A stretch of DNA of 64,000 nucleotides, from assembly GCA_958295805.1 (NCBI GenBank), contig OY282373.1, positions 2,389,001 to 2,453,000 of the forward strand, in the 5' to 3' direction. Position 1 is the first letter of the stretch. Each line of letters begins with the position of its first letter. This DNA is from an uncultured Nitrospirales bacterium (GTDB taxonomy: Bacteria; Nitrospirota; Nitrospiria; Nitrospirales; UBA8639). Below the pieces are notes generated by a model. The model saw only the letters and a program-made list of their open reading frames with translations, did no database searches and had not been told where the DNA came from. The position numbers and the translations under genes are program-made. Below, piece by piece: positions 2,513-16,728 of the stretch.

Positions 2513-3682
2513 ATGCGTCTTTTCTTCTCATATAATCTCCGTCACCTGTTAACTCGACGAGCCACGAGCCTGTTCGCGATTACGGGAGTCGGTCTGGTCG
2601 TGTTCATTTTTGTGGGAGTTCTCATGTTGGCACACGGCGTCGAACACACCTTGGTCAATACAGGATCACCGGAAAACGCTTTGGTCCTTCGGAAGGGAGC
2701 CATCAGCGAAATCGGCAGCGGACTCTATCGGGAGCAGGCTGCCATCCTGCGGACGCTTCCGGAAATTGCACAAGAGAACGACCGCTTGCTGTTCTCACCT
2801 GAAATCGTGGTTCTCATCAACTTGGTGAAACGGGGAACGGACGCCTCCGGCAACGTGACGCTCCGCGGCGGATCAGCAGACTCGTTTCGCGTGCGGCCTC
2901 AAGTCAAAATTGTGAAAGGCCGCACGTGGCGTCCCGGAACCAATGAAGTGGTCACGGGGAAAGAAATCGCTCGACGCTTTCAAAACGCGGACGTCGGCCA
3001 GACGCTTCGGTTCGGCAGACAGACCTGGACCGTGGTCGGAACCTTTGAAGCAGGCGGAAGCGGGTTTGAATCTGAAACGTGGGGAGACGCTGACCGATTC
3101 ATGGACGCGTTCGGGCGCACGTATTATTCTTCCGCGGTCTTCCGACTCCGCAACCCCTCGCTCCTTTCCACGCTCCAAGCTCACGTTGACCAGGATCCCC
3201 GCCTGCCGATTTCCATTACCAAAGAGACCGCCTACTATGAATCGCGATCCGGCTCGCTTGCGAACTTTATCCGAACGCTGGGACTCATACTGACGGGGCT
3301 CTTCAGCGCGGGGGCAAGCCTCGGCGCCATGATTACGATGTACGGCGCGGTTGCGAATCGGACCACGGAAATCGGCACGTTGCGTGCGATGGGATTCACG
3401 CGAAGTCGGATCTTCAGCCTCTTCGTGTTTGAATCAGCCTTGATCGGGCTCATCGGATCCGGTCTGGGCATCATGCTGGCTTCATTGCTTCAATTCACTT
3501 CCTTGTCAACCATCAACTACGCCACCATGTCTGAATTGGTCTATGGTTTTATCCTGACGCATTCGATCGCCACGTGGGGCGTCCTGTTTGGCGTCGTCAT
3601 GGCCACCCTCGGCGGACTGCTCCCGGCCGTTCGCGCCATGCGCACGAACATTCCTCATGCTCTCAAGTTCAGAGGAGCCTGA
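2513..3682 (+). CDS. ABC transporter permease, FtsX domain (second of two)
   Basis: 389 aa, the same length as the preceding permease but clearly divergent. It has an N-terminal transmembrane helix (about 17-42), a periplasmic domain, and three C-terminal helices. The coupling motif is NRTTEIGTLRAMGFTRSRIF. It is the last gene of the efflux operon; no obvious hairpin terminator was seen in the 140 bp after it. The two permeases with one ATPase and one adaptor make a complete inner-membrane module; an outer-membrane channel would have to be encoded upstream of the window or elsewhere. Confidence 0.9.
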   Translation: MRLFFSYNLRHLLTRRATSLFAITGVGLVVFIFVGVLMLAHGVEHTLVNTGSPENALVLRKGAISEIGSGLYREQAAILRTLPEIAQENDRLLFSPEIVVLINLVKRGTDASGNVTLRGGSADSFRVRPQVKIVKGRTWRPGTNEVVTGKEIARRFQNADVGQTLRFGRQTWTVVGTFEAGGSGFESETWGDADRFMDAFGRTYYSSAVFRLRNPSLLSTLQAHVDQDPRLPISITKETAYYESRSGSLANFIRTLGLILTGLFSAGASLGAMITMYGAVANRTTEIGTLRAMGFTRSRIFSLFVFESALIGLIGSGLGIMLASLLQFTSLSTINYATMSELVYGFILTHSIATWGVLFGVVMATLGGLLPAVRAMRTNIPHALKFRGA

Positions 3683-3824
3683 CGCTTCCTCCATCTTGGA
3701 GCAATCAACCCGCCCTCATCTCGACGTCGCCCAAAGGGGACGCCAACGTGCGGGCAATTTCCTTCTCCTCCCGGCTTGGTCAACCGCGAAAAGCTCCGTT
3801 GCACGGCACGAGCGAGCCGAAAAT

Positions 3825-3930
3825 CCGGTCATTGAACATAGAAATCCGGTGATTCGACATGTTGGAGGCAGGAGTTTTGGTCTATACTTTAACGATTTCG
3901 ATAATTGGTTTCATCATTAAAATGATAATC
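3825..3930 (+). promoter_or_regulatory. Promoter P1: 21-bp-spaced direct-repeat operator, -10 and Fur-like box (tonB operon)
   Basis: Two 15-bp direct repeats lie at 3825-3839 (CCGGTCATTGAACAT) and 3846-3860 (CCGGTGATTCGACAT), 21 bp start to start. Exactly 22 bp later comes TATACT (3883-3888), a good -10. There is no clear -35, so the second repeat covers that position, as expected for an activator-dependent promoter. Downstream, 3900-3930 holds overlapping Fur-like sequence (for example CATCATTAAAATGATAATC). The same arrangement recurs at 8133, 10820 and 14948. The activator is unknown; tandem repeats abutting -35 suggest an AraC-family type, which is inference. Confidence 0.75.
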
Positions 3931-3953
3931 CGCTGAAGCGGCAGGGGTCGTGA

Positions 3954-5204
3954 ATGCGCCGTTCCGTTTTGCGTGCAAGGCACAATCCACATTATTGGAG
4001 CAGTTGGGGATTATCGGCGGGCACGCATACGCTGATGGTCGGCCTGGCTCTGATACTGTCGCACGCGCTCCCCGTTCCGAAAAAAGTAGAACGAAATCCA
4101 ATCACCGTTTCCTTCGTCACCCCTAAGCTCACCCAACCCCGGACGACTCCCGTCCATCGTCCGACCGTGAAAAGACCACCACTCACGCCGACGACGCAAA
4201 CGACGCTGGTACAACCCAAACCGATGCCCAAAGAACCCACTCAATCCAAACCTCGGACCCAGACGCAGACCAGACAATCCGTCTCTCCCCGAACGGTTGT
4301 CCAACCTTCCTTGAAGCCGTCTTCTCAACCACTGGCACGCCCCACCGGCGTCACGCGGACGTCCACGGCCCAACCGAAGACGGTCGTGCAGGCACAGGCG
4401 TCTTCTCAGCCTCGGGTCAGGAACGGCGCGGTTTCTTCCCACCCCGTGGCACGACCAGTCGGCAGAGCCGCGACGCAACCACGGTCACGTTCCATCGGCA
4501 CGACACGGCAACAGACGGCCGCCGTGGTTCATGCCTCGGCTTTCCATCGAGAGCAGACTCACACGAACGCGATGACCGCCAAGGTTCATCCCGTTGCACC
4601 ACGCAACCCGATCGTCCAGAAGAAAGTCATCCGTGCTCCGGCAATGGAAGCCGTGAAACAAACGCCACGCGTGGCACCCAAGGCGTCGCACGCGGAGAGG
4701 GTTCATGGTTCCCCAAAGACCGTGCGTCAACGGGTATCACGGCCTCATCAGATAAAGCCCAGCGTGGGTCAGAATTCCTCAAGGACCGTGCGTCAACGGG
4801 TATCACGGCCATCGGAAAATTCCGTCGTGCGGACGCGGACAACGACCCGTCACGTCCACCAAACGAGAAGAACCTCTGCAACAATTTCCAGGCCCGTTTC
4901 GACGGACGGGTTTTCTCCTGCACTCTTGGCCTTCAGCAAGCTTCTGCGCGAGAAAATCGCCCAAGCCCTTGAATTCCCACGTCTAGCCAGACGCCTGGGA
5001 TATTCCGGGACGACCCACGTCGTGATTACCTTGTCAAAGAACGGAATCGTGCAAGCCTTAACCATCTCGCAACCGTCGGGCTATGAGGTTCTGGACAAGG
5101 CAGCCGTTGCCACGTTGAAAAAAGTTCTCCCGACGGTGGAACCGCCTGAATCCATTGACGTGGCCCAGCTCGCCATTCCCATTGCCTTCAATCTGAAACA
5201 GTAA
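3954..5204 (+). CDS. tonB: TonB energy transducer
   Basis: 416 aa. A single N-terminal transmembrane segment (about residues 18-40) is followed by a very long, basic, Pro/Gln/Arg/Thr-rich spacer of roughly 280 residues and a C-terminal TonB_C domain (about 330-416; phrase TTHVVITLSKNGIVQALTIS). The spacer is not the usual Glu-Pro/Lys-Pro type; it carries an internal duplication of TVRQRVSRP, visible as a near-exact DNA repeat at 4719-4746 and 4782-4810. TonB spans the periplasm and passes proton-motive energy from ExbB/ExbD to outer-membrane receptors. exbB and exbD follow, and the receptor at 8315 is a likely client. ATG at 3954 has an AGGGG just upstream. Confidence 0.9.
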   Translation: MRRSVLRARHNPHYWSSWGLSAGTHTLMVGLALILSHALPVPKKVERNPITVSFVTPKLTQPRTTPVHRPTVKRPPLTPTTQTTLVQPKPMPKEPTQSKPRTQTQTRQSVSPRTVVQPSLKPSSQPLARPTGVTRTSTAQPKTVVQAQASSQPRVRNGAVSSHPVARPVGRAATQPRSRSIGTTRQQTAAVVHASAFHREQTHTNAMTAKVHPVAPRNPIVQKKVIRAPAMEAVKQTPRVAPKASHAERVHGSPKTVRQRVSRPHQIKPSVGQNSSRTVRQRVSRPSENSVVRTRTTTRHVHQTRRTSATISRPVSTDGFSPALLAFSKLLREKIAQALEFPRLARRLGYSGTTHVVITLSKNGIVQALTISQPSGYEVLDKAAVATLKKVLPTVEPPESIDVAQLAIPIAFNLKQ

Positions 5205-5251
5205 CGGCGTGCCCTGCGATAACGCCCCATCATCAAAAAGGAGAACGTGTC

Positions 5252-5713
5252 ATGATGCGCACAAGTTTCTTCGCCTGCCTCCTGTCTCTGACGATCCTGG
5301 TTCCACCGTATGCCCTGGCTCAAACCAGCACGTTTACCGCTGAAACCATTGACGCCGACGGCATTCAGATGTCGGTCTCCAACGCCCGGTTATACTGGGA
5401 AGAAAAAATTGATGAGACGACGTTTGTCCCTCATGAAATTACACACGTGCCGGTCAAACGCGGCGCCGCAACGATTAACGTCCAATTTGAGCGGATCGCG
5501 AGCATTCAGATCAGACCCGATCACCCGACGAAGGGACGTCAGGCTCTGACTATCAAGCTGGTCAATGGAAAATCCGGGGAATTCCCCCTGGCGAAAGCGG
5601 TCACGCTCATCGGACAATCCGACTTCGGCGAGACCCGCGTTTCCATGAATGGCCTTCGGTCCATTACCTTTTCCAAGAACCCCGGCGAGCAACGGGCGGC
5701 ACAAGCCCCGTAA
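5252..5713 (+). CDS. Secreted protein of unknown function in TonB-ExbBD operon
   Basis: 153 aa with a clear signal peptide (about 1-24, cleavage after ALAQ); the first of two adjacent ATGs has an AAAAGGAG upstream. I do not recognise the family. The mature protein looks all-beta: short hydrophobic strands separated by charged turns (MSVSNARLYWEEK, TINVQFERIASIQI, RVSMNGLRSITFS). It sits between tonB and exbB, so it is probably periplasmic and made together with the energising complex. It could be a binding protein, an assembly factor or an accessory TonB partner; nothing in the sequence decides. No cysteines suggest lipidation. Confidence 0.8.
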   Translation: MMRTSFFACLLSLTILVPPYALAQTSTFTAETIDADGIQMSVSNARLYWEEKIDETTFVPHEITHVPVKRGAATINVQFERIASIQIRPDHPTKGRQALTIKLVNGKSGEFPLAKAVTLIGQSDFGETRVSMNGLRSITFSKNPGEQRAAQAP

Positions 5714-5753
5714 GGCGTGACCAGACAACACACGAGAAGGAGAAGGCGACCGT

Positions 5754-6179
5754 ATGACCACCTTACACGCCGTCATTGATTATGGAATTATCGGGCTCCT
5801 CCTGCTGTTGAGCACGTGGGCCGTTGCCGTTGCCGTCGAACGGTGGCTCTTTTATCGGCGCGCGCCCTTAGCTCAGTTCGCCGATTCACATCAACTGGAA
5901 ATTTCATTAACGAAACGACTCGTCGTCATCGGCACCGTTGCCGCCAATGCGCCCTACATCGGCCTGCTTGGAACCGTCCTCGGCATCATGGTGACGTTTC
6001 ACTCCATGGGCACTACCAAAACGATCGAAGTGAGCGCGATCATGGTCGGATTAAGCCTGGCGTTGAAAGCCACGGCGGTCGGCCTGCTGGTCGCCATTCC
6101 TTGCGTCGTCATGAACAATGCGTTACGGCGACGGGTGGCGGAGTTGATGACGCAATATAAGGCTCTCCATGGATCATGA
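5754..6179 (+). CDS. exbB: ExbB/TolQ-family proton channel, short type-2 ExbB
   Basis: 141 aa, much shorter than enterobacterial ExbB (about 240) and matching the short type-2 ExbB subfamily that lacks the long cytoplasmic insert. Three transmembrane helices are visible (about 9-27, 55-77, 95-118). The conserved core NAPYIGLLGTVLGIMVTFHSM and the helix-3 stretch LSLALKATAVGLLVAIPCVV contain the small and polar residues that line the pore. It forms the pentameric stator that, with ExbD, energises TonB. The exbD start lies inside its 3' end (11-bp overlap), suggesting translational coupling. Confidence 0.9.
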   Translation: MTTLHAVIDYGIIGLLLLLSTWAVAVAVERWLFYRRAPLAQFADSHQLEISLTKRLVVIGTVAANAPYIGLLGTVLGIMVTFHSMGTTKTIEVSAIMVGLSLALKATAVGLLVAIPCVVMNNALRRRVAELMTQYKALHGS

Positions 6180-6543
6180 ACTGAATCAGATCAACGTCAT
6201 TCCCCTTGTCGACGTGATGTTGGTCCTGCTGGTCATTGTTCTGACGACGGCGACCTTTATTTCGACGGGACAAATTCCCGTGGATCTCGCGCAAGCCGAC
6301 GCCACCGGCGCCACATCGAGCGAGTCGATTACGATCACGATGACCGCATCAGGGGATGTCTTTTTGAACGGCGCCCCCCTTCCACAAGAAGCCATACGCA
6401 GCGAATTGCAGCGGTTCCCGCCGGACACGCTGGTTCTCGTTCGAGCCGACCGCGTTCTTCAGCTTGAGCAATTCGTTGAAGTCGTGGATGACGTGAGAGG
6501 CGCCGGATTAACAAACGTCAGTCTTGCCGTTGAACAAGAGTGA
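6169..6543 (+). CDS. exbD: ExbD/TolR-family biopolymer transport protein
   Basis: 124 aa. The N-terminal transmembrane helix contains the essential acidic residue (Asp15 in NVIPLVDVMLVLLVIVL), which carries protons in this family. It is followed by a periplasmic ExbD/TolR domain (about 45-124; phrase DTLVLVRADRVLQLEQFVEV). The start overlaps the exbB stop and its own stop overlaps the GTG of the next gene, so exbB-exbD-DUF2141 are tightly coupled. TolR is the alternative, but the adjacent tonB favours ExbD. Confidence 0.9.
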   Translation: MDHELNQINVIPLVDVMLVLLVIVLTTATFISTGQIPVDLAQADATGATSSESITITMTASGDVFLNGAPLPQEAIRSELQRFPPDTLVLVRADRVLQLEQFVEVVDDVRGAGLTNVSLAVEQE

Positions 6544-7049
6544 CGACCGGAGTGGAGCGTTCCAACCATAAACCCACACGCCTGACCCTTCTCCTCAGTC
6601 GATGCCGGCTTCGTGGCGTGACCACGTGGCTCTGGATCACGTGGGGGGTCTTTGGTGCAGGATTGTTATCCATCGACTCCGGTCTCGCGGCCACGCTCCG
6701 AGTCACGGTAGAGGGAGTCCATAATAGCTCACAACCCGTTCGCGTTCTTCTCTTCAATTCCCCCGACTCATTCCCCGATGAAGCACGCCGTTTCAAAGCT
6801 CTCGCAACGGGGGCCGCACAAGGCGTGGCCATCGTTGAATTTACGCACCTCGATCCCGGCACCTACGCGATCATGGCCTATCATGACGAAAATGGAGACA
6901 ACAAGCTGAATCGGACCTTGGGAATGTGGCCGTCGGAAGGATATGGGCTCAGTCTGAACCCGCTTGTCCTCGGTCCGCCTGCTTTTCAAGAGACCGCTTT
7001 CGAACTCCCGCCGCACGGACTCTCCCTGACTATTGCTTTGCACTATTAA
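6540..7049 (+). CDS. DUF2141-family secreted/anchored protein
   Basis: 169 aa; GTG start overlaps the exbD stop (GTGA). A hydrophobic segment (about 28-50, ending GLAA) is a signal peptide or anchor preceded by a basic stretch. The mature part matches DUF2141: RVLLFNSPDSFPDEARRFKA, then TYAIMAYHDENGDNKLNR, a calcium-loop-like acidic turn, then MWPSEGYGLSLNP. DUF2141 proteins are small periplasmic beta proteins often found near TonB systems; their function is unknown. The last codons (IALHY, then stop) coincide with the start of the downstream tandem array, and a 70-bp copy of its internal MWPSEGYGLSLNP region lies beyond the array. Confidence 0.85.
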   Translation: MTTGVERSNHKPTRLTLLLSRCRLRGVTTWLWITWGVFGAGLLSIDSGLAATLRVTVEGVHNSSQPVRVLLFNSPDSFPDEARRFKALATGAAQGVAIVEFTHLDPGTYAIMAYHDENGDNKLNRTLGMWPSEGYGLSLNPLVLGPPAFQETAFELPPHGLSLTIALHY

Positions 7050-7859
7050 GCTTTCTCCTTCTTTTGTAGCCGCGCCATCTTATGGCGCTTTCCGGTGGTC
7101 GCATGAGATGCGACCCTACGCATCCCTGGATCCCCGACTCACAATGAACACCACAGACTTGATCGAACCATTGCTTTGCACTATGAAGCTTTCTCCTTCT
7201 TTTGTAGCCGCGCCATCTTATGGCGCTTTCCAGTGGTCGCATAAGATGCGACCCTACGCATCCCTGGATTCCCGATTCACAATGAACACCACAGACTTGA
7301 TCGAACCATTGCTTTGCACTATGAAGCTTTCTCCTTCTTTTGTAGCCGCGCCATCTTATGGCGCTTTCCGGTGGCCGCATAAGATGCGGCCCTACGCATC
7401 CCTGAATTCCCGATTCACAATGAACACCACAGACTTGATCGAACCATTGCTTTGCACTATGAAGCTTTCTCCTTCTTTTGTAGCCGCGCCATCTTATGGC
7501 GCTTTCCGGTGGCCGCATAAGATGCGACCCTACGCATCCCTGAATTCCCGATTCACAATGAACACTACAGACTTGATCCAACCATTGCTTTGCACTATGA
7601 AGCTTTCTCCTTCTTTTGTAGCCGCGCCATCTTATGGCGCTTTCCGGTGGCCGCATAAGATGCGACCCTACGCATCCCTGAATTCCCGATTCACAATGAA
7701 CACTACAGACTTGATCGAACCATTGCTTTGCACTATGAAGCTTTCTCCTTCTTTTGTAGCCGCGCCATCTTATGGCGCTTTCCAGTGGTCGCATAAGATG
7801 CGACCCTACGCATCCCTGGATCCCCGACTCACAATGAACACCACAGACTTGATCGAACC
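7032..7859 (+). repeat. Tandem array of six 138-bp units, each holding a pair of REP-like palindromes (BIME-like)
   Basis: Units start at 7032, 7170, 7308, 7446, 7584 and 7722, each 138 bp and nearly identical. Within each, a 54-bp core (7066-7119 in unit 1) begins with GTAG and ends with CTAC. It contains two hairpins: GCGCCAT-CTT-ATGGCGC (7072-7088) and GGTCGCAT-GAG-ATGCGACC (7097-7115). Read from either end, each hairpin is preceded by GTAG, the signature of REP elements mobilised by RAYT (Y1) transposases. The second stem varies between units with partly compensatory changes (GGTCGCAT/ATGCGACC versus GGCCGCAT/ATGCGGCC). No RAYT gene is in the window. Because 138 is divisible by three, long ORFs run through both strands; I regard them as non-coding. 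Confidence 0.85.
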
Positions 7860-7860
7860 T

Positions 7861-7930
7861 CGGAAATGTGGCCATCGGAAGGATATGGGCTCAGTCTGAA
7901 CCCGCTTGTCCGCGGGCCGCCTGCTTTTCA
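7861..7930 (+). pseudogene. Duplicated internal fragment of the DUF2141 gene
   Basis: This stretch repeats 6921-6990 inside the DUF2141 gene with only a few substitutions; it would encode MWPSEGYGLSLNPLVRGPPA. It lacks a start, a signal peptide and the rest of the domain. It lies directly after the sixth 138-bp unit, so the REP-like array is bracketed by copies of DUF2141 sequence. This suggests duplication by slippage or unequal recombination through the repeats. Confidence 0.8.
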
Positions 7931-7931
7931 A

Positions 7932-8103
7932 GCTTTCCGGTGGCCGCATGAGATGCGGCCCTACTCCTTCTTTTGTAGCTGCGCCATCTTATGGCGCTTT
8001 CCGGTGGTCACAGGAGATGCGGCACTACGCATCCCTGGATTGGGCGCGGATCCGTCGCAGGCTTCTCCGGCCAGCCCGGGCCGCATGAGATGCGGCACTA
8101 CTC
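7932..8103 (+). repeat. Degenerate REP-like palindromes beyond the array
   Basis: Further copies of the same palindromes follow the gene fragment: GGCCGCAT-GAG-ATGCGGCC near 7941-7959, a GTAG-preceded GCGCCAT hairpin near 7976-7998, a decayed GGTCACAG-GAG-ATGCGGC near 8006, and a final GGCCGCAT-GAG-ATGCGGC near 8080-8098. Spacing is irregular and arms are mismatched, so these look like older or scattered insertions. They end about 30 bp before promoter P2. Confidence 0.7.
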
Positions 8104-8132
8104 CATCGAATCACGAATCAAAAAGCTTTTTT

Positions 8133-8222
8133 CAGGCGAATAGACATAAATTTCAGGCCAATGAACATGTTGAACGAGTCCATTTCTCGTTATAAGTATG
8201 ATGAAAATGATTCTATCTATCA
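8133..8222 (+). promoter_or_regulatory. Promoter P2: 21-bp-spaced direct-repeat operator, -10 and Fur-like box (TonB-dependent receptor)
   Basis: Direct repeats at 8133-8147 (CAGGCGAATAGACAT) and 8154-8168 (CAGGCCAATGAACAT) are 21 bp apart, with spacer AAATTT. After exactly 22 bp comes TATAAG (8191-8196). The Fur-like box at 8202-8222 (TGAAAATGATTCTATCTATC, then A) matches 16 of 21 positions of the TGATAATGAT-type Fur palindrome by my count, the best of the four. A second partial box (TGAAATTGATT) follows at 8229. The start codon is about 120 bp downstream of the -10. Confidence 0.78.
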
Positions 8223-8314
8223 ATATCTGAAATTGATTGCCCCTTCGCAGAACGTCGGCAGCGGCCGAAAGCCGTCTCCTGCGTATTCATTATCAAGAAT
8301 AAAAGGAGACTTGC

Positions 8315-10675
8315 ATGATGAGAAAGATTTGTCTGTTGGCTGTCCTTCTATCTGGTCTATGGGGCCTTTCCACGGCCTTGGTCCACGCGCAAGACACTGA
8401 AGACGCTACGGACGCGCAATCCAACAAAGTCAAACTACGACTCGAACAGGTGACGGTCAGCGCCACCAAAACCAAACGGGATACGTTGACGACCCCAGGC
8501 GAAGTCAGCGTCCTGACGCAAGAATATTTTCAACAACGCCAGGCACAAAGCCTGGACGACGTGTTGCGCTACGAACCGGGCGTTGATTCGGGAGGAGGCC
8601 CGCGGAGCATGGCAGAAGGCCCGAACATTCGAGGGTTGTCGGGTGACCGAGTCCTGACGCTGTTGGACGGCGTCCGGCTCACCTTCCAATCCGGTCACAA
8701 GGGTCGGCTCTTTATAGACATGGATCAACTCAAACAAGTTGAAGTCATTCGCGGACCAGGCTCGGCTTTGTACGGCAGCCAGGCCGTCGGCGGGGTCGTG
8801 GCCATGGAGACAAAGGATCCCTCCGACTATCTGGCTCCGGACATGCGGTACGGCCTTCGCCAGAAATTCGGCTATCAATACGCCAACGAAGAACTCCTCT
8901 CCACCACCACGTTATCGGCTCGCTTGGCCAAGCAGTGGTCCGTCATGACCAGCGGCACCTTTCGGGCCGGTGAGAACATTCATCTGGGCGGCGACCTGGG
9001 ACGTTTATCCAACTCTGCTCGAGATAACGCGGCCAATTTGAGCAAACTCGTATGGACGCCGACGCCGCACGATGAAGCCGAGTTTTCGATTCAAGCCACT
9101 CGCCAAGCCGCCCAGGTGCCCTTCCAAGCGAATTCTATGCCCTCCATGCAGAGTTCCGTTGCGAACCGAGTGAATCGTCAAATCACGTATCGCCTGGGAT
9201 ACACGCATAACAATCCGACGAATCCTTACGTGAATCTTCGGGGATTCGTCTATCTCACGACGCTGGACGTGACGGAAAGCCGGATTACCGATCCTGGAGA
9301 AAAAGACGATATCAGTTTCGACACGTTTGGATATGATCTCAGGAATTCCGTGAATTTCGGCGATCCTTCGACGCACCATCACATTGTGACCTTCGGGTCG
9401 GAATTTTACCGGAACACTCAGAAGGGACAAGGCAGCCGCACCACGAGTCGTCGATTTATTTACTCCGAGCCTCGAAGTATCAGCCGGGGACCCTTCCTCC
9501 CGCCCGTTACTGTCCCCAGTTTTCCCATCGGCCTCAGTGCTGAAAGTGTCCCTCTGGGATCCCGGGTATTTTTTCCCTCTGCCCAAGCCAATACCTTCGC
9601 TCTGTACGTTCAGGATGAGATCACGATCATGGACCGCGTCAACCTCATTCCCGCCGTACGATGGGATCATTGGGAAAATAAAACGGCCGGCCGTGAAACC
9701 AAATCCGTAGGCACCGTGAACCCCAAAGTCGGCGCAGTGATTCAGGTCACGGATTTTCTGTTTCTTCACGCGAACTATGCCCATGGATTTCGTCAACCCA
9801 CGTTCGGCGAACTCTTTATCTCCGGCACGCATTTTCCAGGTTCCGTCTTCGCTCCGAATCCTGACCTGAAACCGGAACGGAGCCGGAATCTCGACGCGGG
9901 ATTCCGCATGAAATTGCCAAACGTGCTTTCCGGCAACGATCAATTCATTTTCAAAGGAACCTACTTCAGAAATTCGTTCAAGGATTTTATTGACTTTACC
10001 TCCGGAGGGGCGGTTCAAAATCAAATTTGTAATACGAATCCTCCCAATCTTCCAGGCGGGCGAAGGTTTAATCCAAGACAACCGATAACGGCACCGTGCC
10101 CTTTTATCCATTTTGGCGGGAGGAACGTTCGGCCAGGATTTCATTTCGGCACGCTCGTCCAGCGGGGAACGGATGCCATCCAAACGTTCAGGAACGTTCC
10201 GGATGCCTTGATTCAGGGATGGGAAGCCGAGTTTGAATGGCGCACCCTTGAGAACGTGACCCTCTATGGAAACTACAGTCAATCCCACGGCACCGACAGA
10301 ATCAATGAACGCCCACTCTCCAGCATTCTCCCAAAACAGTTCGTCCTGGGCATTGACTATCAACTACCTGCCTGGGGAGTCACCATGGGCGGACGAACGC
10401 AAATGGTCGGCGACCAGAGTCGCGTGCCAATATCCGATGATCCCTTCGTAACCGGAACCCCGACCGGAGGCTATACGCTTTTTGACATCTGGGCCACCGT
10501 GCATCCCGCCAGGGCGCTGCTGCCCGACCTTCCGACGTCGTGGGTTCAAGGTTTCCAGGTCAATCTCGGGGTTGATAACCTGACCGATCGAAATTACCGG
10601 CGACACTTATCATCGCTTCCTGAGGCCGGAATCAATCCCAAGGTGTCGGTGTGGTACTCCTTGAACCTTCCGTAA
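8315..10675 (+). CDS. TonB-dependent outer-membrane receptor, heme/hemoglobin/transferrin-receptor type
   Basis: 786 aa; two adjacent ATGs follow AAAAGGAG. Signal peptide about 1-26 (ending VHAQ). A TonB-box-like segment (LEQVTVSA, about 43-50) leads into the plug, with PNIRGLSGDRVLTLLDGVR and EVIRGPGSALYGSQAVGGVV. The barrel fills the rest. The FRQPTFGELF (about 492) and NPDLKPERSRN (about 515) boxes match the FRAP and NPNL motifs of heme/hemoglobin receptors, as does the ending YRRHLSSLPEAGINPKVSV. Two cysteines in one extracellular loop (about 571-605) could form a disulphide. Heme or another tetrapyrrole is therefore the favoured ligand, but the motifs are not decisive and a siderophore remains possible. 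It is monocistronic, with its own promoter P2 and terminator. Confidence 0.9.
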   Translation: MMRKICLLAVLLSGLWGLSTALVHAQDTEDATDAQSNKVKLRLEQVTVSATKTKRDTLTTPGEVSVLTQEYFQQRQAQSLDDVLRYEPGVDSGGGPRSMAEGPNIRGLSGDRVLTLLDGVRLTFQSGHKGRLFIDMDQLKQVEVIRGPGSALYGSQAVGGVVAMETKDPSDYLAPDMRYGLRQKFGYQYANEELLSTTTLSARLAKQWSVMTSGTFRAGENIHLGGDLGRLSNSARDNAANLSKLVWTPTPHDEAEFSIQATRQAAQVPFQANSMPSMQSSVANRVNRQITYRLGYTHNNPTNPYVNLRGFVYLTTLDVTESRITDPGEKDDISFDTFGYDLRNSVNFGDPSTHHHIVTFGSEFYRNTQKGQGSRTTSRRFIYSEPRSISRGPFLPPVTVPSFPIGLSAESVPLGSRVFFPSAQANTFALYVQDEITIMDRVNLIPAVRWDHWENKTAGRETKSVGTVNPKVGAVIQVTDFLFLHANYAHGFRQPTFGELFISGTHFPGSVFAPNPDLKPERSRNLDAGFRMKLPNVLSGNDQFIFKGTYFRNSFKDFIDFTSGGAVQNQICNTNPPNLPGGRRFNPRQPITAPCPFIHFGGRNVRPGFHFGTLVQRGTDAIQTFRNVPDALIQGWEAEFEWRTLENVTLYGNYSQSHGTDRINERPLSSILPKQFVLGIDYQLPAWGVTMGGRTQMVGDQSRVPISDDPFVTGTPTGGYTLFDIWATVHPARALLPDLPTSWVQGFQVNLGVDNLTDRNYRRHLSSLPEAGINPKVSVWYSLNLP

Positions 10676-10694
10676 CGTCCAACGCTTCCAATCC

Positions 10695-10775
10695 GTGACT
10701 CTCTGCTACTCCTCCTTCCCCCTTGCAGAAGTCACAGAGAGAGGCCGGCCCCTGGTCGGCCTCTCCTCTTCTTCT
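10695..10775 (+). ncRNA. 3' module A: C-rich-loop hairpin plus intrinsic terminator (candidate 3'UTR-derived sRNA)
   Basis: Beginning 19 bp after the receptor stop, GTGACT (10695-10700) pairs with AGTCAC (10730-10735) and CTGC with GCAG. They enclose a pyrimidine loop containing ACTCCTCCTTCCCCC, which resembles the anti-Shine-Dalgarno tail of 16S rRNA. A terminator stem follows: GAGAGGCCG (10739-10747) with CGGCCTCTC (10757-10765), then a T/C-rich tail. The module recurs almost unchanged at 11344-11424. At minimum it is the receptor transcript's terminator; a separate small-RNA role is inference. Confidence 0.55.
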
Positions 10776-10819
10776 TGAAAGTACGCGAACCCGTTGAATA
10801 CGAATCAACACGTCATTTT

Positions 10820-10915
10820 CCGGTGGATGGACATAAATTTCCGGCCAATGAACATGTTAAAGATGGCTGTTTCCGGTTATAAGAGTCTCTAAACTGAAAA
10901 TGATTGTGCATTTCA
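10820..10915 (+). promoter_or_regulatory. Promoter P3: 21-bp-spaced direct-repeat operator, -10 and Fur-like box (heptad-repeat peptide)
   Basis: Direct repeats at 10820-10834 (CCGGTGGATGGACAT) and 10841-10855 (CCGGCCAATGAACAT) are 21 bp apart, with spacer AAATTT as in P2. TATAAG lies exactly 22 bp later (10878-10883). The Fur-like palindrome TGAAAATGATTGTGCATTTC plus A occupies 10895-10915 (15 of 21 positions by my count). P2 and P3 are similar beyond the motifs (both have GACATAAATTT and GGTTATAAG or CGTTATAAG), suggesting duplication. Confidence 0.78.
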
Positions 10916-10996
10916 AATTTGAAATGTTACATCCAGAACGTCAAGAGAGGCCGAACGGCATACGTCCATTCAGATAAAATTAACAAGGAGGAACCG

Positions 10997-11299
10997 ATGA
11001 GGAAATTTTGTTTCTTGGCTATCCTGCTGTTCTTTGGACTTTCTACAAGTGGGGTCTTCGTGCAAGCCGCCGAAGACACGCAATCCGATCCTAAGGGTGA
11101 GCAAACCGCTGCCCAAGGTGAACAACCCGCCGCTAAGGGCGAACAACCCGCCGCCATGGACGAACAACCCGCCGCCACGGACGAACAACCCGCCGCTAAG
11201 GGCGAGCAACCCGCCGCCATGGACGAACAACCCGCCGCCACGGACGAACAACCCGCCGCTAAGGGTGAACAACCCACCGCCAAAGGAGCGCAGGAGTGA
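10997..11299 (+). CDS. Small secreted heptad-repeat protein (EQPAA repeats)
   Basis: 100 aa. The ATG at 10997 is preceded by AACAAGGAGGAACCG, an excellent ribosome site, so the longer upstream reading is rejected. Residues 1-24 form a signal peptide (MRKFCFLAILLFFGLSTSGV..) that resembles that of the receptor gene (MRKICLLAVLLSG..). The mature peptide is about ten imperfect heptads of the form (K/M/T)(G/D)EQPAA and is acidic, Gln/Pro/Ala-rich and without Cys or His. No known family is recognised. Promoter P3, the similar signal peptide and the 3' module tie it to the receptor gene, as if a receptor transcription unit had had its body replaced by repeats. It could be a periplasmic or secreted spacer, a surface peptide, or merely the carrier of a regulatory 3'UTR. 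Confidence 0.75.
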   Translation: MRKFCFLAILLFFGLSTSGVFVQAAEDTQSDPKGEQTAAQGEQPAAKGEQPAAMDEQPAATDEQPAAKGEQPAAMDEQPAATDEQPAAKGEQPTAKGAQE

Positions 11300-11343
11300 C
11301 TGTTGTTTCAAGTCGTGAGTTTTAAGGATTGCAAGCTGATTCC

Positions 11344-11424
11344 GTGACTCTGCTCTGCTCCTCCTTTCCCCTGATTGCAGAAGTCACGTCCGAGAGGCCG
11401 ACCCCTGGTCGGCCTCTTTTTTTT
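11344..11424 (+). ncRNA. 3' module B: C-rich-loop hairpin plus strong intrinsic terminator (candidate sRNA)
   Basis: Near-copy of module A. GTGACT (11344-11349) pairs with AGTCAC (11382-11387) and CTGC with GCAG. The loop contains CTCCTCCTTTCCCC, nine of ten bases like the 16S tail CACCUCCUUU. The terminator stem is GAGAGGCCG (11392-11400) with CGGCCTCTT (11410-11418), followed by a run of eight T, stronger than in module A. Loop, stem and terminator are conserved while the genes in front differ, which argues that the RNA structure itself is selected. Confidence 0.6.
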
Positions 11425-11534
11425 GAACACCGGGGGGAACAACACGTACAATTTGAACGGTTCATTTGCAAAAGCCCGTCTAAGCAAACGTGTCTCCGAA
11501 GTGTTTAATCTGGGGATGGATTCCCGCTAAAACC

Positions 11535-11708
11535 TGCGGGAATGACAGCGGGAAGGCCGCGGAAATGACACCGGGAAGGTTACGGGAATGACACCGGGAA
11601 GGTCGCGGGCATGACAGTGGGAAGGTTACGGGAATGACAACGGAAGGTTGCGGGAATGACAACGAAGGCTGCGAGAATGACAAGAAAACTTACGAACTGC
11701 GGGAATGA
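11535..11708 (+). repeat. About seven tandem 23-bp repeats of GCGGGAATGAC type
   Basis: Imperfect units of about 23 bp (for example TACGGGAATGACACCGGGAA followed by GGT) run from 11535 to about 11708 and decay toward the 3' end. The first is the right arm of a palindrome with GGATTCCCGC at 11518-11527. The core GTCATTCCCGC / GCGGGAATGAC is the same as in the 22691-22775 element, a common dispersed intergenic repeat type. The array ends 12 bp before the next gene's ATG, where no good ribosome site is visible. The rest of 11425-11534 shows nothing else I recognise. Confidence 0.75.
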
Positions 11709-11720
11709 GCCCGTTTTTCC

Positions 11721-14700
11721 ATGACCACCCTGATTCTGCTCTTGTTCGCCGTTCATTCTTTTGTCGGCATTGCCTATGAGGTCGTGTGGATCAAGCTGTT
11801 GACCGCCTCCATCGGCATGACGGTGACTGCCTTCGGCGTCGTGCTCTCCACGTTCATGGCAGGGTTGGGCATCGGCAGTTACGTGATCGCTCGATGGAAC
11901 GGCTCGCCTCAGGCCCATCACGAATCCGTCAGTCGCGTCGCCTGTCGCTTCATCGCCTTTCTGCAAATTCTGATGGCTCTCCTGGGCGTCACGTTTCCTC
12001 TTTTATTGAACTGGGGGGACCAGTTCTACGTGCTGCTCGCACCGGAAACCGACGGGATCCGGCACCTTCTGGTAAGAAGCTTCTACGTCGGGGCACTCCT
12101 CCTTCCCGTCACCACCCTGCACGGGATGAACTTTCCCGTGCTGGCCTCCTTGCTCACGCGATGTTTTGCTCGTTCAGGCACGACCAAACCCGGCCTGCTT
12201 TACTGTATCGGCCTGCTGGCCTCAGGATTGGGCTCGCTCGCTTCGCTCGCCTTGATTCCTTCTCTGGGATTGGAGAACACCTCCCTGGCACTCGGCGTCA
12301 CGAACCTCATCCTCGCTCTGGCTGCTTTTCTCGCAAGTTACCAGACACGTGCTCGTGCCCAAACCATTCAGAAAGGAGCGTCCCCATCTCGCACACGTCG
12401 CACCCAGGACGCCGTCGCGCCCACCCCATTTTCTGCATCCGTTCTTCAAACGCTGGGCGCAGTCGTGGGATTTCTTGTTCTTTCGTTAGAAATCATCGGC
12501 GCCCAATACGTCTGGCTCATCGTCAACGTCACCGCCTATGCGGAAGGCATCCTTCTCACCACGGTTCTGCTCATGATGGGATTCGGCTCCGGCGCCTACC
12601 TCTTGCTCAGAGGACGGGTGCGGAACCGATCCACGTTGTTGACGTGGGGACTCTTCATCACCCTCATCGCTCAAATCGCGGTCGTGCCTCTTGCGGGTGA
12701 CATTGCTGGTCTGTTTGATCGAATCTTCCAGGAACTGCGCCCGGACGAGATGGTGGTCCACTTTCTTCTCAGCGACGCGTTGCTGACCTTTACGATTCTC
12801 GGCGTGCCCATGATTGGATTGGGCATGGCCTTTTGCAGCCTCTGCGACCTTGCAACGTCATCCTCACCCAACCAACCCCATGCGGCCGTCATTTCTCCTT
12901 TGGGACGGTTGTATGCGTGGCACAACTGGGGAGCCGTGGTCGGATCCGTGCTCACGACCTTCGGGTTTCTTCTCCTGTTGGGACTCACCCATACCTGGCT
13001 GTTGCTCTCAGCCTGTCTCGTTTGCACGCTGGCGTTGCTGGTTTGGCGTCTTCCCTTGTCGTCGGCACGGGGCAAGCCCGTCCCACGCCGTGCCAGAATT
13101 TTCGGCACGTGGGGCAAAGGATTCGCCTTCTTTCTGCTTCTCGGCGTCCTCGTCCGGCTTGCAACGAACGCGGACCTGACCTTCCGGCACGCCGCGGCCG
13201 GGAGTTCCCAACGGGTACTGTATCACCATGAAGACGCCATGGGAGTCACGGAAGTCTTTGAAGACGAAGAAACCACGGCCCGCACGCTCCTGACCAGCCG
13301 GCTGCGACAGGAAGGGGGCAGCGGCCCTGAAGAGATCCGCGTTCAGCGCATTCAAGGTTATTTGCCACTGTTCCTGCATCCCGATCCCCGACGCGTGCTC
13401 GTGGTGGGATTAGGCACGGGCATCAGCCTTTCTCCCACCTTACGGGAGGAAGTCAAACAAGTCACGGTGGTCGAAATCTCTCCAGGCGTCATTGAAGCGG
13501 CGGAACGTTTCTTTGCTCAGGCGAATGCTTACGTTCTGGAGCACCCCAAAGTCCGGGTCGTGGAACAAGACGGACGCAACTTTATCAAGCTGACGCGCAA
13601 CAGGTACGACCTCATCGTGCAAGAATTGTTTTTTCCCTACCAGACCGGGGTCGGCAGTCTGTACACCCGGGAGCATTATCAGCAGTGTCGAGACAAATTG
13701 GCTCCCGGCGGCCTCATGGCCCAATGGATTACGATCAATCAGTTGAGCACGAATGATTTGCGGACCCTGGTCGGTACCTTCCAGTCCGTGTTTCCGGCGA
13801 CCTCTCTGTGGTTGAACGGCGGATACCTGTTGATTCTGGGCGGACGTGATCCCCTGCACGTCGATCTTCAACGCTTTCTGGCACGATACGAGATCAACGA
13901 TCCATTGGGCGGCACGTCCCAGCTCGATTCCGATCCCTACAATCTGTTGGGCCTGTTCGTCAGCCACGGCTCGGCCGTTCGGAATTGGACGGACGATGCG
14001 CCGCTGAATACCGATGATAACCGCTTCATCGAATACTCGACGCCTCTTGCCTTCAACGCCTTGAACACGGTGAACTTGGCCGCGGAGACGTTGACAAGCC
14101 TGCTCCCCCACTTCCGTCCCCTCACCGATGTGGTCCGCGTCGGCCCGTCCTCGGACGACGACGCGCTCACGCGGTTGTCTCAAGTTTCCGCGGCGGCACG
14201 ACTCCTGATTAAAGGCATCGTGGCACGTGCCGGAAACCGCGTCGATGAGGCCATGGAGCTCTATGCTCAATCATGGGAACTTCACCCTTCGAATTATCAG
14301 ACCCGCACGTTTCTCGAACGGACCTGGGCAACCAAAGGGCACGCGCTGGTTCTCGAAGAACGCGACGACGCTGCCCTCCCCTGGCTGCACAAGGCTCTGA
14401 TGATCAACGCACGGAACCTCAACGTGCGGTTCGACCTCGGCCTGATCCATTCACGGCAAGGAAACGATCCGGTGGCGGCAGATTTGTATGAATCCATCAT
14501 TCGTCTGAATCCCGGGTGGACCCAAATCGCGTCCGTCTGGTTCAACCTGGGGCTAATCCGCTATCGAATGGGTCTCTATCAATCCGCCACAACCTCGTTC
14601 CGCGAAGTACTGGCGCACGAATCCACGTCGATTGACGCTCGATTCAATTTGGCCAACAGCCTGGCTCAATCAGGAAAATACCGGGAAGCCGTCACGCAGT

Positions 14701-14831
14701 ATCAAGAACTCTTGAAACTCGCCCCCGACCATCAAGAGGCCCGGGCGAATCTCAAGGAAATCCTTGCCTGGCTTGAACGTGGTGACAAGCGTCACCGTGA
14801 TGCTTCATCAGGACGCCTCTCCGTCAAGTAA
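11721..14831 (+). CDS. Polytopic membrane spermidine-synthase-like protein with C-terminal TPRs
   Basis: 1036 aa. Residues about 1-490 hold many transmembrane helices in two blocks separated by a short loop near 210-240. This matches the large membrane-embedded spermidine-synthase-like (fused MFS/SpeE) family. Residues about 550-720 are a Rossmann methyltransferase/aminopropyltransferase fold: VLVVGLGTGISLSPTLREEV, acidic VVEISPGVIEAA, and LIVQELFFPYQTGVGSLYT. About 840-1030 are tetratricopeptide repeats (NVRFDLGLIHSRQGNDPVAA, IDARFNLANSLAQSGKYREA). True spermidine synthase activity is doubtful in this family; the substrate is unknown. It lacks the shared P1-P4 promoter, and the ATG has no clear Shine-Dalgarno. 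Confidence 0.85.
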   Translation: MTTLILLLFAVHSFVGIAYEVVWIKLLTASIGMTVTAFGVVLSTFMAGLGIGSYVIARWNGSPQAHHESVSRVACRFIAFLQILMALLGVTFPLLLNWGDQFYVLLAPETDGIRHLLVRSFYVGALLLPVTTLHGMNFPVLASLLTRCFARSGTTKPGLLYCIGLLASGLGSLASLALIPSLGLENTSLALGVTNLILALAAFLASYQTRARAQTIQKGASPSRTRRTQDAVAPTPFSASVLQTLGAVVGFLVLSLEIIGAQYVWLIVNVTAYAEGILLTTVLLMMGFGSGAYLLLRGRVRNRSTLLTWGLFITLIAQIAVVPLAGDIAGLFDRIFQELRPDEMVVHFLLSDALLTFTILGVPMIGLGMAFCSLCDLATSSSPNQPHAAVISPLGRLYAWHNWGAVVGSVLTTFGFLLLLGLTHTWLLLSACLVCTLALLVWRLPLSSARGKPVPRRARIFGTWGKGFAFFLLLGVLVRLATNADLTFRHAAAGSSQRVLYHHEDAMGVTEVFEDEETTARTLLTSRLRQEGGSGPEEIRVQRIQGYLPLFLHPDPRRVLVVGLGTGISLSPTLREEVKQVTVVEISPGVIEAAERFFAQANAYVLEHPKVRVVEQDGRNFIKLTRNRYDLIVQELFFPYQTGVGSLYTREHYQQCRDKLAPGGLMAQWITINQLSTNDLRTLVGTFQSVFPATSLWLNGGYLLILGGRDPLHVDLQRFLARYEINDPLGGTSQLDSDPYNLLGLFVSHGSAVRNWTDDAPLNTDDNRFIEYSTPLAFNALNTVNLAAETLTSLLPHFRPLTDVVRVGPSSDDDALTRLSQVSAAARLLIKGIVARAGNRVDEAMELYAQSWELHPSNYQTRTFLERTWATKGHALVLEERDDAALPWLHKALMINARNLNVRFDLGLIHSRQGNDPVAADLYESIIRLNPGWTQIASVWFNLGLIRYRMGLYQSATTSFREVLAHESTSIDARFNLANSLAQSGKYREAVTQYQELLKLAPDHQEARANLKEILAWLERGDKRHRDASSGRLSVK

Positions 14832-14947
14832 AAGGCAAGCACGCTCTTCTCCACCACGTCGGCGAACGCCTTGATCGCCGGGACAACGCCGGCAGTCGAG
14901 ACGTCATCCCGTTCTCCGCGTCACGTGACCACCCGTTTCCCACATAG

Positions 14948-15040
14948 CCGGTCATTGAACATCTTTTTCCGGCGATTGAACATGTACGGCTTTCATCGTA
15001 CTTGGTATTTTTCAAAAACTGAAATTGATTCGCTATTTCA
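14948..15040 (+). promoter_or_regulatory. Promoter P4: 21-bp-spaced direct-repeat operator, -10 and Fur-like box (secreted chelatase)
   Basis: Direct repeats at 14948-14962 (CCGGTCATTGAACAT, identical to the first repeat of P1) and 14969-14983 (CCGGCGATTGAACAT) are 21 bp apart. After exactly 22 bp comes TATTTT (15006-15011), a weak -10. The Fur-like palindrome TGAAATTGATTCGCTATTTC plus A occupies 15020-15040 (14 of 21 positions by my count) and runs into the ribosome site AAAAAGGAGG. A repressor bound here would also block the start region. Confidence 0.76.
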
Positions 15041-15057
15041 TAAAAAGGAGGTCCGTG

Positions 15058-16728
15058 ATGAACCATCTGAGGAAAAACCCGTGGACGGCTCTGTTTCTGT
15101 TCGTCCTGATGAGTACCAGTCCCCTCCCCGCATGGGGCCAATCTCATCTCGGCTTTCTGGTCGTTGCACCGGACCGTGGGTTTCTTGGGAATCAGGAAAC
15201 CAGGAAGATCGTCGAAGAATTCCAGCGCAATTATCCCGTATCCCTGGCTTTTGTCGGAAACAAGTATGAAAGCGTCGATACCGCGTATACGTCATACATC
15301 AAACAAGCCCTGAACCAACTACGTTCATTACACGTGACGTCCGTCGTCGCGATTCCATTCTTTCTTTCCGATGCCGACCCGCAACTGCGTGCAGTCCGTA
15401 ACCTGTTGCCTGCCTATGGAAACGATCTGGACATCAAATGGGCTCCAGCCATGGCCGAGAGTCATCTGATCGGCCAGATCCTTCTCGACCGGATCAAAGC
15501 CGTCAGCCAATCTCCTCAACACGAACGACTCGTGCTCGTCGGACTCGGCGCGCGCGACGAAAAAAGTGAACGGGCCATTACGGACGACTTAACGCAGTTG
15601 CTTCAGTACGTCCAACGATATAAGTCGTTCCAGAAGAGTGAAATCGTCGTCTACTATGACCGGCACGCGGAACAAGCCCGTGAAAAAAATCAGAAGATTA
15701 CCGCGCACGTGACGGAATTGGCCGCCATGCAAGGGCGTACCTTGGTCGTCCCGGCGTTTATCGGCGTCAAGTTCGATCACATGATGGCCATGACGTCCTG
15801 GCTCCAACGCAGATTTCAGAAACTGAACGTGGTGTTTCAGCCGGAAGAAATCGCTCCTCACCCCAACCTGCTTGTGTGGCTCAAGAAAACCGCACATCAG
15901 CACGTGGACGTGCTTCCCAACGAAATCGGGGTCGTCATTATGCCGCACGGATCAACCCAACCGTACAATGATGCCATTGAAAAGACGATTGCCCCGCTGA
16001 CGCGGCTCTATCAAATAGAAATGGCGTATGGCATGGGAGATCAGGTCATTATTCAACGCGCCGCGTCTCGTCTTGAACAACGAGGCATCAAGAAAATCGT
16101 GTTTGGAAGGATGTATGGGCTCGTCGATCACATGAAACCTAAAACGGATTACATCCTCGGTCTTTCCGACGAGTATCTCCATGAGTTGGATCAGGGCCAT
16201 ACCCCGCCACCACAAATTCGAAGCGCCGCAATTTTTTCTACGTTCGGAGGCTATGAAGAAGGTGCCGACGTTGCGCAGGTGTTGCACGACCGGATCACGG
16301 AAATCAGTCAAAACCCTTCAGAGGAAACCGTCATTCTTCTTGCTCATGGGACGAAATCCGACGAAGACAATCAACGCTGGTTGTCGGTGATTAACGCCAA
16401 CATCGAGAAACTCCGACGGGAACCGCATTGCGCAAAACTGAAGGCCATCAAGGCCGCGACCGTACGCGAAGATTGGCCTGAGTTGCGCAAGAAGGCGGTG
16501 AAGGAGGTGCGCGAACTCATTCAGGAAGGGAATAAAACCGGAAGAGTGCTCGTCATCTCGAATCGTCTCTACGGTCCAGGGCCCTACCCCAAAATGCTGG
16601 ACGGCCTCGACTTTGAATTCAATGGGAAAGGATTTCTCTCTCCAGTCATCGCACACTGGCTTGAGCAATCCATTCAGCAAGTCACCGAACGGCTGAGAAA
16701 CCCGACAAGGGGCACTGAGCAAAGCTAG
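15058..16728 (+). CDS. Secreted CbiX/sirohydrochlorin-chelatase-like protein with four half-domains
   Basis: 556 aa from the ATG at 15058, chosen because AAAAAGGAGG lies 7 bp upstream. Residues 1-28 are a signal peptide, unusual since CbiX, SirB and ferrochelatases are cytoplasmic; periplasmic CbiK of Desulfovibrio is a known parallel. Four CbiX-like half-domains can be traced (about 31-150, 150-285, 288-410, 415-556). Halves three and four keep the metal-site histidine (His297 in IMPHGSTQP, His430 in LLAHGTKS). The equivalent spots in halves one and two read VAPDRG and VGLGARDE without His. Family knowledge suggests insertion, removal or binding of Co, Ni or Fe in a tetrapyrrole, here in the periplasm. 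Promoter P4 links it to the TonB system and receptor. Confidence 0.8.
   Translation: MNHLRKNPWTALFLFVLMSTSPLPAWGQSHLGFLVVAPDRGFLGNQETRKIVEEFQRNYPVSLAFVGNKYESVDTAYTSYIKQALNQLRSLHVTSVVAIPFFLSDADPQLRAVRNLLPAYGNDLDIKWAPAMAESHLIGQILLDRIKAVSQSPQHERLVLVGLGARDEKSERAITDDLTQLLQYVQRYKSFQKSEIVVYYDRHAEQAREKNQKITAHVTELAAMQGRTLVVPAFIGVKFDHMMAMTSWLQRRFQKLNVVFQPEEIAPHPNLLVWLKKTAHQHVDVLPNEIGVVIMPHGSTQPYNDAIEKTIAPLTRLYQIEMAYGMGDQVIIQRAASRLEQRGIKKIVFGRMYGLVDHMKPKTDYILGLSDEYLHELDQGHTPPPQIRSAAIFSTFGGYEEGADVAQVLHDRITEISQNPSEETVILLAHGTKSDEDNQRWLSVINANIEKLRREPHCAKLKAIKAATVREDWPELRKKAVKEVRELIQEGNKTGRVLVISNRLYGPGPYPKMLDGLDFEFNGKGFLSPVIAHWLEQSIQQVTERLRNPTRGTEQS

Follow-up and report, generated by a model that had tools for sequence, protein, structure and literature searches.

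Two RNA modules at the 3' ends of neighbouring genes in the genome of an uncultured Nitrospirales bacterium appear to owe their likeness to the tandem duplication of a TonB-dependent receptor unit. The window, that is, the whole stretch of 64,000 nucleotides of contig OY282373.1 that was analysed, contains a receptor gene followed by module A and a short peptide gene followed by module B. In the reading that we favour, to which we give a probability of roughly two in three, the receptor unit, from its operator and leader through signal peptide and body to the 3' hairpin and terminator, would have undergone a tandem duplication in the line of descent leading to this genome. The downstream copy would have lost the receptor body, with a coding stretch made of 21-nt repeats presumably filling the gap, and the outcome would be a gene for a small, putatively secreted peptide on a receptor-type promoter and 3' end. 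Each module would then consist of an intrinsic terminator and an upstream stem with a CU-rich loop that may protect or define the 3' end of the mRNA. The duplication itself, with A and B as paralogous 3' ends, is well supported and in our judgment very probable. The features concerned are listed below in window positions; G003 and G007 designate two congeneric genomes.

8133..8168 (genome 2397133-2397168), + strand: operator-like direct repeat 5' of the receptor gene (CAGGCGAATAGACAT / CAGGCCAATGAACAT, 21-bp period), with 1 mismatch
8315..10675, + strand: TonB-dependent receptor gene, 786 aa, with Plug and beta-barrel domains (domain search)
10695..10735, + strand: module A hairpin 1, with a GTGACT/AGTCAC stem, an inner UCUGC/GCAGA stem and an 18-nt CU-rich loop (pattern match, predicted fold)
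10739..10765, + strand: module A predicted intrinsic terminator, a hairpin with a mixed CU tail after it (terminator scan, predicted fold)
10820..10855, + strand: duplicate operator-like direct repeat 5' of the peptide gene, with 0 mismatches, in a homologous leader
10997..11299, + strand: peptide gene, 100 aa, with a receptor-like signal peptide and 7-aa (21-nt) EQPAA-type repeats (alignments, repeat search)
11344..11387, + strand: module B hairpin 1, with a 23-nt CU-rich loop (pattern match, predicted fold)
11392..11418, + strand: module B predicted intrinsic terminator, a hairpin with a T run after it (terminator scan, predicted fold)
11444..11479, + strand: 36-nt stretch in common with the flank downstream of the single G007 module (score 37, 0 of 500 shuffles as good)

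The twin modules described in the initial annotation are real. The composite pattern GTGACT...CTCCTCCTT...GCAGNAGTCAC coincides with both hairpins 1 (10695-10735 and 11344-11387), and this combination of stem, CTCCTCCTT loop, GCAG and stem has two matches in the window as against none in 100 shuffles. Folding z-scores are -6.3 and -6.8 for A and B, and the four modules of the window, G003 and G007 all have a similar predicted fold (z -6.0 to -6.8). Terminators had also been claimed, and the hairpins at 10739-10765 and 11392-11418 bear this out: both modules present a GC-rich hairpin with a U-rich tract 3' of a gene, as predicted for intrinsic terminators. The inner CTGC/GCAG stem exists as described, except that in B the CTGC taking part lies two columns away from its position in the other three copies.

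A DNA search of the genome itself (2.9 Mb) returned A and B alone as strong matches (E values of 1e-38 and 1e-14, the rest being at 0.03 or weaker). With a covariance model, A and B scored 96.3 and 89.5 bits and the next place in the genome 20.0 bits; in 48 genomes of the family the four copies scored 89.5-96.3 bits and anything else reported at most 30.4 bits, the source alignment of the model placing the G003 loop differently from the hand alignment from which the conservation columns given below were taken. Weak model matches were reported in G035, G229, G031, G021, G029 and at two places in G005, among other genomes; the ones inspected by eye (G015, G002, the first place in G005, and G033, at 24.2-30.4 bits) look like terminator hairpins; a weak match at 636420 of the genome itself is, again by eye, a C-rich stretch. 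A dispersed repeat or a regulon-wide 3' element found no support, as nothing beyond A and B exceeded 20.0 bits in this genome and no other gene end of the cluster was reported. Nor were the modules recognised as a known Rfam family: no family reached its gathering score in an Rfam scan, which gave 17 weak matches, all under their cut-offs.

It is hardly credible that A and B, or their CUCCUCC word, came to be alike through chance or convergence. Judged by window counts against shuffles, the word alone is unremarkable. CTCCTCC is not rare, with 13 occurrences against 8.9 expected, a number reached by 13 of 100 shuffles, and CTCCTCCTT occurs three times, once within a coding region (12096-12104), against a shuffle mean of 0.69, a count reached by 4 of 100 shuffles. 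However, chance does not account for a composite pattern absent from the shuffles, for the distance in bits between the four copies and everything else reported in the family, or for the synteny found in relatives, and the two genes, with their homologous leaders and flanks, have already disproved it.

These two genes had been regarded as otherwise unrelated, which proved incorrect. The upstream regions of the receptor and peptide genes align with a local score of 104, whereas none of 300 mononucleotide shuffles scored above 27, and the homologous stretch runs from slightly 5' of the operator-like repeat, across the leader, into the signal peptide; in the leader alignment 156 of 239 columns are identical. 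The peptide signal sequence also aligns to the signal peptides of the receptor and of receptor orthologues. The second copy in the window is without the receptor body, and most of the peptide's coding sequence consists of the 21-nt repeats; no Pfam family match was found for the peptide. We read the peptide gene as a body-replaced duplicate of the receptor gene. The stretch directly 5' of module B shows no homology to the end of the receptor gene, so that the 3' breakpoint would lie almost exactly at the base of the hairpin, which counts against our preferred reading.

The flanks show the junction expected of a tandem duplication. After module A, the copied leader opens with the flank that precedes the receptor leader (equalled by 0.2% of 500 shuffles); this match adjoins the leader alignment and does not count as independent evidence. 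Compared with the downstream flanks of G003 and G007, the sequence after A resembles neither (0.94 and 0.77 of shuffles as good). The flank after module B matches that of the single G007 module through the 36-nt stretch listed above, which probably marks B as the original distal end. The comparison of the B flank with that of G003 is not significant (0.104 of shuffles as good) and counts against this detail. Homologous 5' and 3' ends, a single copy in the relatives and this junction thus come together, and the recurrence of the module is attributable to one duplicated 3' end. Independent 3' modules behind unrelated genes are ruled out by the homologous leaders, signal peptides and flanks. The apparent convergence is thereby removed: copying of an entire transcription unit would account for the two occurrences of the 3' module. 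A receptor gene would also have supplied promoter, signal peptide and terminator to a gene for a small, probably secreted peptide.

In G003 and G007, which we take to be sponge-associated, the order is receptor, single module and then a spermidine-synthase/TPR gene, 51 nt past the module in G003 and 146 nt past it in G007. Counted from the first ATG, this last gene has an open frame of 1036 aa in the window and 1024 aa in G003 but 693 aa in G007, perhaps through a broken frame or an assembly error. Among 14 genomes of the genus, a receptor hit at E <= 1e-80 was obtained in three, and exactly those three also have strong module matches. Over 235 genomes of the order, five have the receptor at E <= 1e-60 and three the module at E <= 1e-4, the module search having used stricter filters that can lose weak matches. 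A wider contig search for further module homologues gave two loci, both of them the known two relatives. In the two additional genomes with a receptor, G023 and G230, the protein is 62-65% identical over the matched pieces; the GTGACT hairpin is absent from the place of the module, which is occupied by a GAGGCCAGC...GCTGGCCTC GC-rich hairpin. A hairpin at this place speaks for our preferred reading, its poor T tract against it. The leaders of A and B are no closer to each other than those of A and G007 (identities of 0.65 and 0.67), so that the duplication may predate the species split, with loss elsewhere, or else B may have evolved fast.

The operator-like repeat (approximately CCGGYSAWTGRACAT twice, with a 21-bp period) is found at 3825-3860, 8133-8168, 10820-10855 and 14948-14983. 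Allowing up to 3 mismatches, these four sites, located 5' of the TonB, receptor, peptide and chelatase-like genes, are the only ones in the genome and all belong to the cluster; the reversed control gave 0, and distant variants may be missed because the pattern was drawn from these same sites. In seven further genomes, the pattern matched in three (2 places in G003, 7 in G007 and 1 in G010). The copied promoter, rather than the 3' module, would link the peptide to the receptor system. The stretch TGAAAATGATT (8203-8221 and 10896-10914) is invariant across all four leaders; by eye it resembles a Fur box. In G007 (L036, 5618-6124, minus strand), a divergent gene with a signal-peptide-like start lies behind an operator-like site with 2 mismatches, and blastn of window positions 3001-16000 gave no match at this gene.

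Stem and loop are conserved in relatives beyond the terminator, the point on which the initial annotation had made its proposal depend: the hairpin and its CU-rich loop are kept in the two congeneric genomes. Module identity among the four copies is 0.78-0.86; fourfold sites of the two neighbouring genes give 0.57-0.69 and the leaders 0.59-0.74, with gap columns omitted throughout and the peptide leader trimmed 2 nt off. In a hand alignment of the three species, identical columns amount to 12 of 12 in the outer stem, 8 of 11 in the inner part, 15 of 17 in the loop, 0 of 3 in the spacer and 20 of 22 in the terminator stem, as against 280 of 555 (0.505) fourfold sites in the same species; these comparisons lean in favour of conservation, since they use a manual alignment, leave out gapped columns and include a loop that consists almost only of C and T. 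Between A and B, 16 of 18 loop columns are kept. In the four sequences, no pair is altered on both sides and 16 of 21 pairs never vary; 96.4% of cells are paired, as compared with 96.7% for shuffles and 37-54% when the partners are slid. As the module, loop included, is more conserved than fourfold sites, hairpin 1 is probably under constraint and probably matters.

A loop about as conserved as the stems would be more than plain protection of the 3' end needs, and this speaks against the protective role in our preferred reading. It would suit a loop that serves as a protein site, or as a pairing site for the leader of its own mRNA, as would its CUCCUCC...CCCC make-up with variable length. Pairing with the own leader is, however, unexceptional: of 500 shuffled loops, 161 do as well for A with the receptor leader, 78 for B with the peptide leader, 176 in G003 and 52 in G007. 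We consider such a site improbable.

The loop had been described as matching nine of ten bases (CTCCTCCTTT) of the 16S 3' tail. Compared by eye with the usual bacterial 16S tail, this is correct for B; A and G003 match at 8 of 10 positions and G007 at 7 of 10. The tail of the genome's own 16S was searched for and not found. In G007 the CUCCUCC core is retained and the following UU of the anti-Shine-Dalgarno (anti-SD) match is lost. SD-like sites do precede the ATG of the peptide gene (10997) and that of the chelatase-like gene (15058), as had been noted. The proposal that the loops target the ribosome sites of the cluster gained no support from comparison with other genes: among 62 leaders, those of tonB, receptor, peptide and chelatase-like genes rank 17-46, gene calls in the window being crude and starts chosen partly by SD strength. 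Measured against mononucleotide-shuffled loops, 40-398 of 500 pair as well with these four leaders, the fewest (40-78) where the leader is that of the chelatase-like or the peptide gene. When the leader window was widened, with the peptide start placed 2 nt too far, the figure was 114-384. No special anti-SD target thus emerged among the cluster leaders: their pairing is no better than that of the other leaders in the window and in some cases mildly better than with shuffled loops.

The initial annotation had seen in the modules 3'UTR-derived small RNAs (sRNAs). On this account, sRNAs of about 80 nt would be released from both mRNAs and pair, Hfq-free, with ribosome-binding sites through the CU-rich loop, exerting feedback on the receptor cluster or acting on many mRNAs. 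Part of its basis stands, namely a conserved structured hairpin that exposes a CUCCUCC loop ahead of a terminator, a loop that is also retained in the duplicate. In its favour as well, the module loops pair somewhat better than most shuffled ones with the leaders of the chelatase-like and peptide genes. Another part is lost, since the recurrence behind seemingly unrelated genes comes down to one duplicated 3' end. Furthermore, no Hfq was found in any of the three genomes by a search that was positive in 5 of 14 control genomes, and a scan for promoter-like sites just 5' of module A or B gave none. The pairing, Hfq and promoter results remove the specific reasons to expect an sRNA; the UU lost in G007 and the Rfam result also weigh against one, as may the missing compensatory changes in the four sequences. 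We judge this account unlikely, although less so than a loop acting as a protein or own-leader site.

Intrinsic (Rho-independent) terminators with an additional upstream hairpin in the 3'UTR are of a known kind. The modules resemble them in having a GC-rich stem and a U-rich tail shortly past the coding region, and differ from them in that the upstream hairpin has an 18-23 nt CU-rich loop whose sequence is kept in three species. CcsR RNAs have a CU-rich unpaired loop resembling the anti-SD. These RNAs are alpha-proteobacterial and are co-transcribed with a DUF1127 gene (PMC10253847). Alpha-r14 sRNAs, also alpha-proteobacterial, are predicted to form three hairpins, each with an identical unpaired anti-SD motif CCUCCUCCC (PMC10746234). 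Such a loop is common to the modules and to alpha-r14, cuckoo and CcsR RNAs, and it lends the sRNA account some plausibility, but unlike alpha-r14 each module has a single one. The Rfam ar14 model gave the module 17.9 bits and did not reach its gathering score of 58.8. Autoregulatory 3'UTR-derived sRNAs are documented: OppZ and CarZ repress their own operon (PMC7398697). The modules likewise lie between the stop codon and the terminator of a transport gene; as opposed to OppZ and CarZ, they are predicted from sequence, with no Hfq found and no specific pairing to cluster leaders. If the conserved CU loop were a regulator, it would make the modules candidate sRNAs of Nitrospirales whose genomes yielded no Hfq. 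More speculative, and slightly less probable again than the protein or own-leader site, is a genus-restricted, Hfq-independent anti-SD-like hairpin acting as a sponge or sRNA, duplication having made one copy of the receptor unit a carrier that chiefly yields this regulatory 3' end together with a secreted small peptide. A literature search found no paper on Nitrospira small RNAs or transcriptomes with TonB-dependent systems, or on siderophore/TonB functions of sponge-symbiont Nitrospira.

Finally, the locus is rich in repeats. Besides the 21-nt array within the peptide gene, six copies of a 138-bp tandem unit (7032-7859, 97% matches), with short inverted repeats visible by eye, lie between a DUF2141 gene and the receptor gene, and a 23-bp tandem array of 6.6 copies (11535-11683) lies between module B and the next gene.
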